In this document: piece by piece, positions 14,208 through 25,784 of the stretch
Layout: each line of letters opens with the position of its first letter
Numbering within the stretch: position 1 is the first letter of the stretch
Virus record (IMG/VR): IMGVR_UViG_3300020020_000136
Span: 1 to 28,386 of that record
DNA length: 28,386 bases
Reading direction: 5' to 3' (one strand)
From: a virus
Program-made: the position numbers and the translations under genes
The notes under the pieces: generated by a model
What the model saw: only the letters and a program-made list of their open reading frames with translations
Databases searched by the model: none
What the model was told of the DNA's origin: nothing

Positions 14208-14530
14208 TGACCCAATACAGCAAGGTAGCCGTAGAGAAGGCCATCCAGGCCTCCCGCCGTAGCGGCCAACATATTGGCAAGCGCGAAGCCCAGGCCATCC
14301 ACCGCCTGCTAGCCGGGCGCGGTGCGCCCCGCTACGGCATCTGGTGCGAAGTCTGGGGCGGTGTCACTGGCAGTCGCAGTAGTTGGGCCAAAGGCCCAGC
14401 TGGCGAAGTGCTGGAATTCGCCAGCCAGGAGGAAGCCGTAGTCGAAGCCGAGGCCAGGATGGCCCGCACCCAGGGCGATGTCAGGCGTACCGCCAACTTT
14501 GCCTATACCGCAGCCGAGCTGGAACCATGA
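14207..14530 (+). CDS. Hypothetical protein
   Basis: 107 residues; ATG at 14207 (a GTG one codon earlier is possible) overlaps the preceding TGA. The N-terminal 40 residues are helical and basic (VEKAIQASRRSGQHIGKREA, IHRLLAGRG). The middle is Trp/Gly-rich (YGIWCEVWGGVTGSRSSWAK), and the end is a charged helix (EEAVVEAEARMARTQGD). A nucleic-acid-binding accessory is possible from charge. I recognise no family. Stop overlaps the HTH gene (ATGA). Confidence 0.6.
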   Translation: MTQYSKVAVEKAIQASRRSGQHIGKREAQAIHRLLAGRGAPRYGIWCEVWGGVTGSRSSWAKGPAGEVLEFASQEEAVVEAEARMARTQGDVRRTANFAYTAAELEP

Positions 14531-14718
14531 CCAAGGAACGCTTCATAGCCGGGCTGGAACGGCTCGGCCACAACATCTCGACCGGGCACCGCCTGCTGGG
14601 GATAGGCCGCGCCACCATGTACCGGATCTCCAGGGGCACCTCCGAAGTGCCCCCGGTAGTCCAGCGCCTGATGGACATGTACGAAAAATTCGGCGTGCCG
14701 GAGGAACACCGGCAATGA
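14527..14718 (+). CDS. Small Cro/XRE-type helix-turn-helix regulator
   Basis: 63 residues from MTKERFIAGLERLGHNISTG. The pattern LERLGHNISTGHRLLGIGRA then TMYRISRGTSEVPPVVQRLM is a helix-turn-helix of the Cro/YdaS-like kind: helix, turn with small residues, recognition helix starting at GRATMYRISRG. The gene overlaps both neighbours by ATGA. It probably represses a promoter of its own region; the palindrome at 13430 is one candidate target. Confidence 0.7.
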   Translation: MTKERFIAGLERLGHNISTGHRLLGIGRATMYRISRGTSEVPPVVQRLMDMYEKFGVPEEHRQ

Positions 14719-14846: not shown

Positions 14847-14871
14847 ACGGCCCGGCGTAGTGCCGGGCCGT
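14847..14871 (-). terminator. Intrinsic terminator for the leftward replication operon
   Basis: A perfect 10-base stem, ACGGCCCGGC with GCCGGGCCGT, and a 5-base loop. On the minus strand it is followed by TTTTTT (seen as AAAAAA just left of the stem), so it ends transcripts from the 17596-15108 genes. On the plus strand no T run follows, though the stem may still protect the 3' end of the rightward operon. Confidence 0.8.
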
Positions 14872-14920: not shown

Positions 14921-15172
14921 GTGAGCCCAGCATGTGCAGGGTAGTATATATATATATAACTTTAGGGATTCCTTAGAAGCTGGGGCAAAAAAGCGGGCTC
15001 ACTTGGGCTCACCACGCTTTTCGTGCGAGTTTTCAGTACCTTACCTGAGCCCAGCTGTTGAGCCCACCCCCTCGGTGAGCCCAGCAAAATGTGGGCTCAG
15101 GAACTTTTTAGAGGGTTTCCGGCGGTTCCATTTCCCCTGTGAGCCCACCCTTTCCCGAAGGGCTGGGCTCAC
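14921..15172. other. Candidate replication origin: nine TGAGCCCA repeats and AT tract
   Basis: Nine near-identical 8-9 base repeats on both strands: forward (TGAGCCCA) at 14921, 15046, 15059, 15075 and 15139; reverse (TGGGCTCA or CGGGCTCA) at 14994, 15004, 15092 and 15164. The last forward/reverse pair (15139 and 15164) forms a hairpin inside the 3' end of the primase-helicase gene. A (TA)7 run at 14945-14959 could be an unwinding element. The cluster lies between convergent operons, so it is unlikely to be promoter operators, and it abuts the replication initiator genes. This fits an iteron origin; no function is proven. Confidence 0.55.
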
Positions 15173-16628
15173 GGTTAGGCACCGCCTTCAGCACCGTCTG
15201 GGTAGTGTCAATGTGCCCCCATTTAGCCGCGTGTTCCCGCCGTCCTGTTTCACTCAGTGCGGCTGCCGCGGCGGCCCGTGACCGGAAGCAGTAGAGATGC
15301 AGCTGCCGACCGCCGATCCGCATCCGGGCCGGCTGCCCGTTCGGTAGTTTGACCCGCACGCAGTGGTCATTGAACGCCCCCTCCAGCTGCCCCCGCCACA
15401 GCGCGCCGGAGCCGCCCGACCGCTCGTCGCCGGTCAGCTGCCCCTCGACCTCCCGCTCAAGGAAGATCTTGGGGAAGACCAAGCCGCGATCGTCATCCGC
15501 GGCGAAGTCGAGCAGGGCATGCTCGACGTCCGACAGCGCGAGATCCGCCATCTCGGCCTTGCCGGCGGTCTTCAGCGGAGCAAAGGCGTTGAACTGCGAG
15601 AGATCAGAGCTGGCCAGGTAGTCGGCCAGGGCGGCGATGTTGCCAGGCCCCCGCAGCCAGGCGTCCATCTCGACCCCCTCAGCCGGCGTCATCTCGCGGC
15701 CATTACGGAGCACAGTGATGCGGCGGTCACTGGCGGGAATGGCTGCGGCGTTGGCGTGATTGGTAGCGATCCAGATCGAGCAGTAGGACATGCCGTCGAA
15801 CGCCGGCAGTCCCTTGACCTTGAAGCTGCGCCGCTTCGGCGCCGGGTCCATCACGTTCTTCAGCGCAGTGTACACGCTGCGCTTCTCACCGCGGCGATAG
15901 GCCGTCGGAGAGCTGTGCGCCTCATCGACCGTGACCAAGAGGCAGTTGGCCTGCCAGTCGGTGTAGACCGCCTGCGCGGAGGTGCCGGCCAGGATCTCGA
16001 AATCCTCCGACTTGCAGTAGGCTTCGCCATATAGCGCGTGTGCTATCCTAAACATGAAGCCGCGGCCGGTGCCGAACTTGCCCTCGCGCGGCCCATCCTC
16101 ATTGTCGGCCACGAACCAGATGCTGATGCCCGGCACTTGCGGGTTCAACATCTTGTAGGCCAGCCAGTCCAAAAACCAGTTGCGTTCGGTCATGTCAGGC
16201 AGGAAGCGGTCGAGGAAGTCGAGGAAGGGCTGGATGTCGCCCAGCTCCGAGCCTGTGTGCTGCGGCTGTCGGTAGGTGTTCTTGTAGATCTTGCCGTCGG
16301 CATCGACGTAGCCGGGAAAGCCACGATCCGGCGCCATCCTCACCCCGGCGATGGCGGCCCTGGCCGAACTGAGCAGCCATAGCGCGGTAGCGAACACCCG
16401 CACCGGCTTGCCCTTCTCCTTGATCTTCTCTTCCTCCCACCAGTGCATGTACGAGGTCTTGAACGCGGACAGCGACATCGTGCAGTGCGCGCTCGGCTCA
16501 TACAATTGCACTACCCGGTCGGCCCGCTCGTCATAGCCGTGGGTCTTGATCAACCACATCGCCTTGTCCGCGATCGGATCGGCTCCACCCGGCCGCTGCG
16601 GCGGCGGCGATATTTTCTGCTTGATCAC
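15108..16628 (-). CDS. Phage primase-helicase, SF3-like (DUF5906 type)
   Basis: 506 residues from a GTG with GGAGG 7 bases before it; a longer reading from ATG at 16643 would put that ribosome site inside the coding region, so I prefer the GTG. Motifs of the DUF5906/SF3 ATPase family: FGTGRGFMFRIAHALYG near 185-201 (Walker A position), LLVTVDEAH near 230-238 (Walker B with DE), CSIWIATNHANAAAIPASDRR near 283-303 (sensor Asn and Arg finger). The A motif has Arg where Lys is expected. It unwinds DNA with the prim-pol encoded just upstream, 2 bases away. The C-terminus (EPSPSGKGGLTGEM) is encoded by repeat-containing DNA. Confidence 0.8.
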   Translation of the reverse strand: MIKQKISPPPQRPGGADPIADKAMWLIKTHGYDERADRVVQLYEPSAHCTMSLSAFKTSYMHWWEEEKIKEKGKPVRVFATALWLLSSARAAIAGVRMAPDRGFPGYVDADGKIYKNTYRQPQHTGSELGDIQPFLDFLDRFLPDMTERNWFLDWLAYKMLNPQVPGISIWFVADNEDGPREGKFGTGRGFMFRIAHALYGEAYCKSEDFEILAGTSAQAVYTDWQANCLLVTVDEAHSSPTAYRRGEKRSVYTALKNVMDPAPKRRSFKVKGLPAFDGMSYCSIWIATNHANAAAIPASDRRITVLRNGREMTPAEGVEMDAWLRGPGNIAALADYLASSDLSQFNAFAPLKTAGKAEMADLALSDVEHALLDFAADDDRGLVFPKIFLEREVEGQLTGDERSGGSGALWRGQLEGAFNDHCVRVKLPNGQPARMRIGGRQLHLYCFRSRAAAAAALSETGRREHAAKWGHIDTTQTVLKAVPNREPSPSGKGGLTGEMEPPETL

Positions 16629-16630
16629 TG

Positions 16631-17596
16631 CTAGTCCTCCCATGTGTGTTTGTGCTCGACCATCAGCTGCTTCAGTTGCTTCTGGAATTCGGGGTCGTCA
16701 TCAGGTGAAAGACTCTTCCAACGGTGCGAGACGCCGTACTTGGTATCCCATAGCGCGAGGCCAGCGCCGCCCTTGTTGACCAGCACCCGGTCGGGCGTGC
16801 GCGATTCCTTGTCCCACAGGTCGGCCCGGCCCTTCATCTTGGCCGCACCGGCGCGCTTCTCCAGCTCCGACAGTTTCACCCGCTCGCCAGTGGACAGCGT
16901 GAACACCATGTCCGGCGTAAGATCATACACCCGCTCGCCATGGACATGGTTCTTCGACATCGCGATCTGTTCAAGGCCGAGGCCGAGCATCACCTCCTCG
17001 CAGGCGGTGATCATCAAGGGGATGTCGGCCTCCGGGAAGAACGGCAGATCGGACAGCTGCACGTCCAGGATCGAGGCGCCGATGTAGCCGTACTCGCGGC
17101 CTTCCGAGTGATAGCCATGCACCGCGACGTACCGCTTGTCCCTGCCGGTGAAATACTCAACCAGGTGGGGCTTGTCGGAATCCGATTTGAACCTGGCGGT
17201 CCAGTGCCGCTTGCGTGCGGTGTTGCAGCGACCGATCAGGGCCAGCGTGGTGCCGCCCGACGTTCTCCACAGGCAGTCGGCCATGAACTCGGGCCACCTT
17301 GCCTCCAGCCTGATCGTCAGTGCATCCCGCACTGCGGCGCTGCGCACGTCGAGGTCGATCACGAACACATCATGCCCGAACATGCGGATGCCGGCGGCTT
17401 TGCCCCGCCACATCGAGATCGATTCGTCATCATTGCAGGTATACGGCCAGCCCTGGAACGGCCCATCGCGGCCGCGTAAGGGTATGACATCAAAGCCGTT
17501 ATCGCGGATCTGCTGCCAAACCCGGCGGTAATGGTGGACCGGCTTCGGCTGCAGCGGGACGGCTTGCTTTAGAGCTGCGGGATGGTACACATTCAT
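16631..17596 (-). CDS. Primase-polymerase (AEP superfamily)
   Basis: 321 residues; ATG preceded by GAGG. The N-terminal domain has the archaeo-eukaryotic primase layout: YRRVWQQIRDNGFDVIPLRG, FVIDLDVR (residues 78-85, D81 and D83 metal ligands), RTSGGTTLALI (111-121), then a VEYFTGRDKRYVAVHGYHSE block containing the conserved His. Makes primers and may synthesise DNA. The C-terminal 120 residues (KLSELEKRAGAAKMKGRADL and the end PDDDPEFQKQLKQLM) look like a PriCT-like tail, which is uncertain. Its stop is 2 bases before the helicase start, so it forms a split primase-helicase. Confidence 0.8.
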   Translation of the reverse strand: MNVYHPAALKQAVPLQPKPVHHYRRVWQQIRDNGFDVIPLRGRDGPFQGWPYTCNDDESISMWRGKAAGIRMFGHDVFVIDLDVRSAAVRDALTIRLEARWPEFMADCLWRTSGGTTLALIGRCNTARKRHWTARFKSDSDKPHLVEYFTGRDKRYVAVHGYHSEGREYGYIGASILDVQLSDLPFFPEADIPLMITACEEVMLGLGLEQIAMSKNHVHGERVYDLTPDMVFTLSTGERVKLSELEKRAGAAKMKGRADLWDKESRTPDRVLVNKGGAGLALWDTKYGVSHRWKSLSPDDDPEFQKQLKQLMVEHKHTWED

Positions 17597-25051: not shown

Positions 25052-25784
25052 TCACAAAGTACACACCCGGCAGGCGCCGATGTCGCGCAGGCCGGCGGCG
25101 GTTTCCTTCACCGTCCGCGGCACCCGGCCACCCTCGAATTCGGCGCGCAGATCCTTCAGGGAGGTGGCCCAGGTGTCGCGGCCTGGGGTGCGGTAGGTAG
25201 CGCCCAGCTCGGCTTCGTCGGCCTCGGCGTCGGCCCACAGCTCGGGGAAGTCACGCCACAGCGTCCACCACTCGCCGATTCGCTGGTGGTAGCAGCGGGC
25301 GCAGTCGGTGCGGCGCGGGATCGCAACCTGCTTTTCGAACAGGTATTCCCAGACGTGCTTTTCGGTCCAGCCCCACTCCCGCAAGGGAAAGCGCATCTCG
25401 ACGCCACCGATGTCGGCATAGGCGCCGCCGGCGCGGCCCTCCTCGTCGGCGCGCAGGCCGACATAAGAAACACAGGGCGTGTTTTTTATCAGCCAGGCCC
25501 GGTACGGCTCGATCTTGAGAATCCGGGTGCAGAACCTGGCGCGAAAGTTCGGCAGCATCTTCTCTTTGCGGATGACGCCCTTCAGTCCGGTGGTGTGCAT
25601 CACAGGCAGGATGCGCTTGCCGAGGCGATCGCCGGAGCGATCGCCAGTGCTCGTACATCTCCGGCAGCTCGTCGCCGGTGGGCGTGCAGACATAGGTGTA
25701 ATCGACGTCGGGGTTCAGCTCGCGCAGACGCAGGGCCAGGGCGGTGGAGTCCTTGCCGCCGGACAAGGCTACGACATGCTTCAT
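25052..25784 (-). pseudogene. PAPS-reductase-like protein, split by a one-base frameshift
   Basis: The PAPS reductase/PP-loop family continues in two frames. Frame 1 starts at ATG 25784 (ATGA with the methyltransferase): MKHVVALSGGKDSTALALRL, with the PP-loop SGGKDST at 8-14, through LPEMYEHWRSL (to residue 50). Frame 2 continues from GDRLGKRILPV to the stop at 25052: LKGVIRKEKMLPNFRARFCT, LKIEPYRAWL, a CARC pair and a C-terminal CRVC. Removing one C near 25634 restores a single 243-residue protein of normal length. The extra base lies in the loop of a perfect hairpin. It may be a true inactivation, a programmed shift or a sequencing error. Family members are ATP-pyrophosphatases; phage substrates are unknown. 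Confidence 0.75.
25624..25645. repeat. Perfect inverted repeat at the frameshift site
   Basis: GGCGATCGC-CGGA-GCGATCGCC: nine perfect pairs around a 4-base loop, containing two GCGATCGC octamers. The suspected extra base (25634) lies in the loop. Such a structure favours polymerase slippage and sequencing compression, and could also act as a pausing element. Confidence 0.7.

Follow-up and report, generated by a model that had tools for sequence, protein, structure and literature searches.

PICI origins lie immediately 3' of rep and carry sets of iterons on either side of an AT-rich region (PMC6092414). Phage P4 needs its crr element in cis to replicate, and this element is located immediately 3' of the alpha gene. 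The C-terminal domain of the SCCmec protein Cch2 binds direct repeats just downstream of its own gene (PMC7581432), and ORF904 of pRN1, a prim-pol/SF3 replication protein, has its origin just downstream in a sequence that is poorly conserved among relatives (PMC4234260). PLE satellites swap replicon modules and alter their iterons to evade an origin-cutting nuclease, with the matched pair kept (PMC8263062). We found no report of the rep-ori layout in autonomous phages in the open-access literature. The overall layout of the locus described here is already known from SaPI/PICI and P4; the novelty is the concerted change of the iterons and the exchange of helicase and iterons as a cassette.

The window (the whole stretch of DNA analyzed, a 28,386-base IMG/VR virus record) was originally predicted to carry nine copies of a short word on both strands. 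We located all nine within 14922-15171, eight of them exact (TGAGCCCA) and one near-exact (TGAGCCCG), with some of the predicted starts one base off because the 9-mer GTGAGCCCA had been counted. Exact TGAGCCCA does not occur anywhere else in the record, and when the window was simulated 40 times with a second-order Markov model, no word reached more than four copies per 260 bases, compared with eight here. The whole-genome count of one-mismatch forms, proposed as a check, bore out clustering but not overall abundance: the record holds 15 in total, fewer than the shuffle mean of 27.65, and the signal is thus the clustering of TGAGCCCA. A second cluster of comparable strength was not found in the window, in agreement with the impression by eye, for a record that may be incomplete. 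Cumulative GC skew, also proposed as a check, peaked near 12 kb and was lowest near 21 kb; it did not switch at the cluster and was uninformative.

The cluster extends from about -64 to +187 relative to the helicase stop. The genes ahead of it, up to 14843, are on the plus strand and the helicase gene is on the minus strand, so the cluster sits between convergent genes and, as predicted, invades the 3' end of the helicase gene, where two iterons overlap the codons for the C-terminal tail. The predicted (TA)7 run was found as well; it separates iteron 1 from the other eight, and a tract flanked by iterons is also present in most relatives. The final inverted pair does form a hairpin (16 bp, 88% complementary). 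Iterons 2 and 3 make up a pair facing the AT tract with 10-bp spacing, and similar pairs were seen in relatives and in P4 crr. Coordinates are listed in Table 1.

Table 1. Features of the proposed origin region and its neighboring genes (positions in the window).
Feature	Position	Strand	Remark
Terminator-like hairpin with T run	14847..14871	-	Past the origin in the reading direction of the helicase gene
Small HTH-like gene	14527..14718	+	Convergent neighbor; the cluster in relatives does not depend on it
Iteron 1, TGAGCCCA	14922..14929	+	Separated from the helicase by the AT tract
AT tract, proposed unwinding element	14942..14966		(TA)7 at 14945-14958; AT tract at matching place in relatives
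Iteron 2, TGAGCCCG	14994..15001	-	One mismatch; head-to-tail with iteron 3
Iteron 3	15004..15011	-	Exact TGAGCCCA
Iteron 4	15046..15053	+	Exact TGAGCCCA
Iteron 5	15059..15066	+	Exact TGAGCCCA
Iteron 6	15076..15083	+	Exact TGAGCCCA
Iteron 7	15092..15099	-	Exact TGAGCCCA
AAAAAGTTCC, conserved single-copy non-iteron element	15100..15109	-	Mid-origin
Iteron 8	15140..15147	+	Exact TGAGCCCA; within last codons of helicase gene
Iteron 9	15164..15171	-	Exact TGAGCCCA; within last codons of helicase gene; hairpin with iteron 8 at 15139-15172
DUF5906/D5-type helicase, 511 aa	15108..16643	-	Proposed initiator and iteron-binding protein
Helicase C-terminal domain	15180..15548	-	Proposed iteron-binding; three helices, three strands, two helices
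Partner protein	16631..17596	-	Homologous to the N-terminal prim-pol part of relatives' fused primase-helicases

Because the terminator-like hairpin lies beyond the origin, helicase transcripts may cross the origin. The element AAAAAGTTCC is common to seven close relatives, the window included (the others being L011-L015 and L108), with one copy in each and always in the same orientation; it is possibly a second binding or priming site. We also observed that AAAAAGTTCC(A) is kept in mid-origin in these loci although the surrounding iterons differ.

The helicase matched DUF5906 above the cut-off, and its structural model matched the helicase region of NrS-1 (6k9c, E=2e-17) and the SaPI5 primase-helicase (7ola, E=5e-8) in Foldseek, with low model confidence in the C-terminal tail from residue 482 on. 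Sequence searches of the helicase gave no match to Pox_D5 and only chance-level phmmer matches to PDB sequences. The C-terminal domain has a predicted winged-helix-like topology and winged-helix proteins were frequent among its weak fold matches, none of which was significant when the domain alone was searched against the PDB (best E=0.15, with 1ka8 outside the top 50). Prim-pol adjoins or is fused to the helicase in every relative, and one of the fused relatives, L021, matched Prim-Pol (PF09250). The replication module further encodes a VRR-NUC-type nuclease, a DUF2800 protein, a family A polymerase, an SNF2-type helicase, and a 275-aa protein of a DNA-metabolism family. The terminase and tail fiber genes in the record identify a tailed phage, and with a terminase large subunit, tail fiber genes, and a phage DNA polymerase it is not a phage-inducible satellite island. 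Outside this module, a PAPS reductase-like gene (phrog_424, 25052-25693) has copies in L011, L012, and L016 that are 79-81% identical.

When the helicase and the polymerase were each used as single queries against IMG/VR, no relatives were identified. Genome contigs likewise gave none with the helicase and no match in an alignment search. A scan of the collection with a loose pattern for the window's own iteron pair returned mostly single copies and no clear relative among the matches listed. The nearest named phages are Nsp-JY18 and Mel-JY33, whose helicases are about 30% identical to that of the window and which carry a cluster at the corresponding place with the word ACCCGGGT. An alignment of the window with these two phages identified 11 IMG/VR loci and a second round added seven more. 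After duplicates were merged (L016 = L017 = L018, and the two JY phages as one), 17 distinct relatives remained, made up of IMG/VR loci and phage Nsp-JY18.

An iteron cluster, mostly built from another word, accompanies the 3' end of the corresponding helicase gene in 16 of the 17 relatives; L103 shows only traces of one. The words are GTGGACCAG, GTGGCCTAG, GTGGACAG, GGGGACAG, GTGTGGCCC, TGACCCA (two loci), TATGGACCC, CCTGACACG, CGTGGGCA, CGAGGGCA, TGAGACC (two loci), AATCCCAA, TTTGTGTCTG, and ACCCGGGT; those of L102, L105, and L020, where the clusters are weak by count, were read by eye. In most relatives the layout runs from iteron arrays to an AT-facing head-to-tail pair, then through the AT tract, and ends in one or two iterons of reversed orientation. 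When sequence windows were ranked without preset words, the helicase-end site came out at the top of its locus for 11 loci out of 18, a set that counts the window itself as one. Elsewhere in the remaining seven loci, some stretches scored as high or higher, and some of these were taken to be coding repeats. The conservation in relatives that was to be checked therefore holds in a stronger form, in that position and layout are kept while the word changes.

Three side observations concern the words and the records themselves. The helicase and origin of L016, L017, and L018 are identical across three different metagenome datasets. The 94,958-base record IMGVR_UViG_3300021082_000020 (L018, L019, L045, L050) holds two different helicases with differing iteron words and two terminases, and is a composite of two related phages that arose either in assembly or as a tandem. 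GTG is found at one end of the words of many loci, and of P4's, which may be coincidence; the pRN1 primase has been reported to start at GTG (PMC4234260).

All nine GTGGACA iterons of L013 read GGGGACA in L108, a T to G change that is consistent with the strand of each copy in both orientations, while 53 of the 54 remaining iteron columns are identical. Of 209 positions outside the iterons, 179 are identical, and the T/A columns there show this base change in three cases out of 101. The helicase core is 98% identical between these two loci, compared with 86% for the C-terminal domain. Across loci, word similarity followed C-terminal identity given the core (partial Mantel r=0.45, p=0.005 for nine close taxa; r=0.27, p=0.016 for 18 taxa) but did not follow the core given C-terminal identity. 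As the words were set by eye and the partial Mantel test is known to be liberal, we take these correlations as supporting evidence only.

Comparisons of loci, among them two pairs of phages that are otherwise nearly identical, pointed to exchange of the helicase together with its iterons. Between L108 and L105, both flanks are mostly 83-100% identical, with lower values in the border bins, compared with only 30-72% (per 100 nt) over the whole segment from helicase start to last iteron. In L013 and L015, the flanks beside the block are mostly 88-99% identical and the helicase gene, its last third most of all, differs along with the iterons. The pattern is reciprocal for L013 and L108, whose cassettes are 81-97% identical with flanks mostly at about 60-80%. 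From these alignments, the exchanged unit is the iterons together with the helicase gene or, in the main, the C-terminal part of that gene, with prim-pol mostly staying in the flank.

Against this background, the locus resembles the SaPI/PICI rep-ori (SaPIbov1, SaPI5 Rep, EcCICFT073) in having the proposed origin directly 3' of an initiator helicase gene, iterons that flank an AT-rich region, and a helicase of the D5/SF3 Rep type, the window helicase model matching 7ola of SaPI5. SaPI/PICI elements are satellites, however, whereas these are tailed phages with their own terminase, tail fiber genes, and family A polymerase; the window also has primase and helicase as separate genes, and its iteron word varies among close relatives. 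P4 alpha and the window helicase both match DUF5906 (PF19263) above the cut-off, and the type 1 repeats of crr (GGTGAACAG) are likewise found in both orientations with a head-to-tail pair ahead of an A-rich tract. The P4 word is one base apart from the L013 word, GGTGGACAG. In contrast to the window, P4 has a Toprim-type primase, two cis sites (ori and crr, compared with the one cluster of a possibly incomplete record), and a terminator between alpha and crr rather than beyond the origin. The C-terminal Pox_D5 winged-helix origin-binding domain of the P4 alpha type (1ka8) was not matched by the window C-terminal domain at this sensitivity. SCCmec Cch2 shares the D5-type helicase and a putative origin downstream of the gene, but has only three 5-nt iterons and another polymerase system, and pRN1 ORF904 differs in being from an archaeal plasmid and in having a 100-nt stem-loop with no iterons.

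Several other functions were considered for the repeats. The HTH-like gene is the convergent neighbor of the cluster here and lies near it in L011-L016, L019, L105, L106, and L108, and a phage repressor such as its product could use the repeats as operators to control transcription. We found no promoter-like site there, however, and the site is between convergent genes. The HTH gene is missing in the more distant relatives and was not found in L020, L021, L102-L104, L107, L009, or L010; almost every one of these loci has a cluster. The flank of L108 and L105 that includes this gene is 97-100% identical, yet their iteron words differ. Operators are thus a most unlikely explanation. The chance that the cluster is a cis site of a non-replicative kind is close to negligible: attP arm sites, packaging sites, and partition sites do have short repeats in both orientations, and the attP arm repeats of P4 adjoin crr, but no integrase or ParB was recognized among the window genes examined, the large terminase gene is 11 kb distant, and the invariant partner of the cluster across relatives is the helicase.

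An origin whose iterons are read by another protein (prim-pol, the HTH protein, or a host factor), with the helicase merely recruited, would be in keeping with the constant adjacency or fusion of prim-pol and helicase and with RSF1010, which uses separate proteins to recognize, unwind, and prime (as described in PMC4234260). It is nevertheless very unlikely, since the cassettes of L108/L105 and L013/L015 carry the helicase and the iterons with prim-pol mostly in the conserved flank, and since the word tracks the C-terminal domain of the helicase. The original prediction had named the prim-pol/helicase or its partner as the binder; because of the cassette swaps, the candidate narrows to the helicase.

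The cluster is very probably the replication origin of the phage, of the rep-ori type, given its uniqueness, its conserved position and layout, the co-variation of word and C-terminal domain, the exchange of helicase and iterons as a cassette, and a helicase model whose fold is D5/SaPI5-Rep-like. An origin combining iterons, an AT-rich element, and a neighboring initiator, as originally predicted, is accordingly the reading best supported by the clustering and by conservation in relatives. Within it, we infer binding, melting, self-loading, and start sites as follows. The TGAGCCCA iterons would be bound by the neighboring D5/DUF5906 helicase through its C-terminal domain; helicase hexamers assembled on the arrays at both sides would then melt the (TA)7 tract and load themselves. 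The partner prim-pol would prime and the phage family A polymerase would extend.

More broadly, origin specificity in these phages may be a diversifying "lock and key," in which every lineage pairs a word of its own with a helicase C-terminal domain that reads it, the word changes array-wide, and helicase and origin cassettes move between backbones, with origin-hijacking satellites, origin-targeting nucleases, or co-infecting relatives as plausible agents of selection. We consider this proposal about as likely as not. PLE is a precedent for selection on such cassettes, since its RepA-origin modules are likewise swapped, with altered iterons and the matched pair kept. PLE differs in that its RepA initiator is unrelated, it is a satellite, and its selecting nuclease, Odn, is known, whereas no such agent is known for the window phages.

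We also looked at named tailed phages with related primases, ten of them hand-picked from tblastn matches and BPP-1 added for literature reasons. The top-ranked cluster was just 3' of the primase gene in five of these 11 (Escherichia phage 611R5, Stenotrophomonas phage S1, Klebsiella phage Soft, and Vibrio phages 1.017.O and LP.1), a proportion that is not a frequency because the set was hand-picked. No cluster was found 3' of the primase in the other six (phiM5, KPP23, 7-7-1, two Manatee Spring phages, and BPP-1), and BPP-1 had no iterons where a stem-loop had been proposed. The clusters of the five named tailed phages (L110, L115, L116, L117, L118) are unannotated in their records.

With a matching layout in autonomous tailed phages, the five named ones included, direct prediction of the origin could be extended to many phages. 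Close pairs in which every iteron differs by one base are a natural experiment on the stepwise change of specificity of an initiator DNA-binding domain. The same pairs offer a way to ask whether replication specificity evolves under conflict, as it does in PLE and ICP1.
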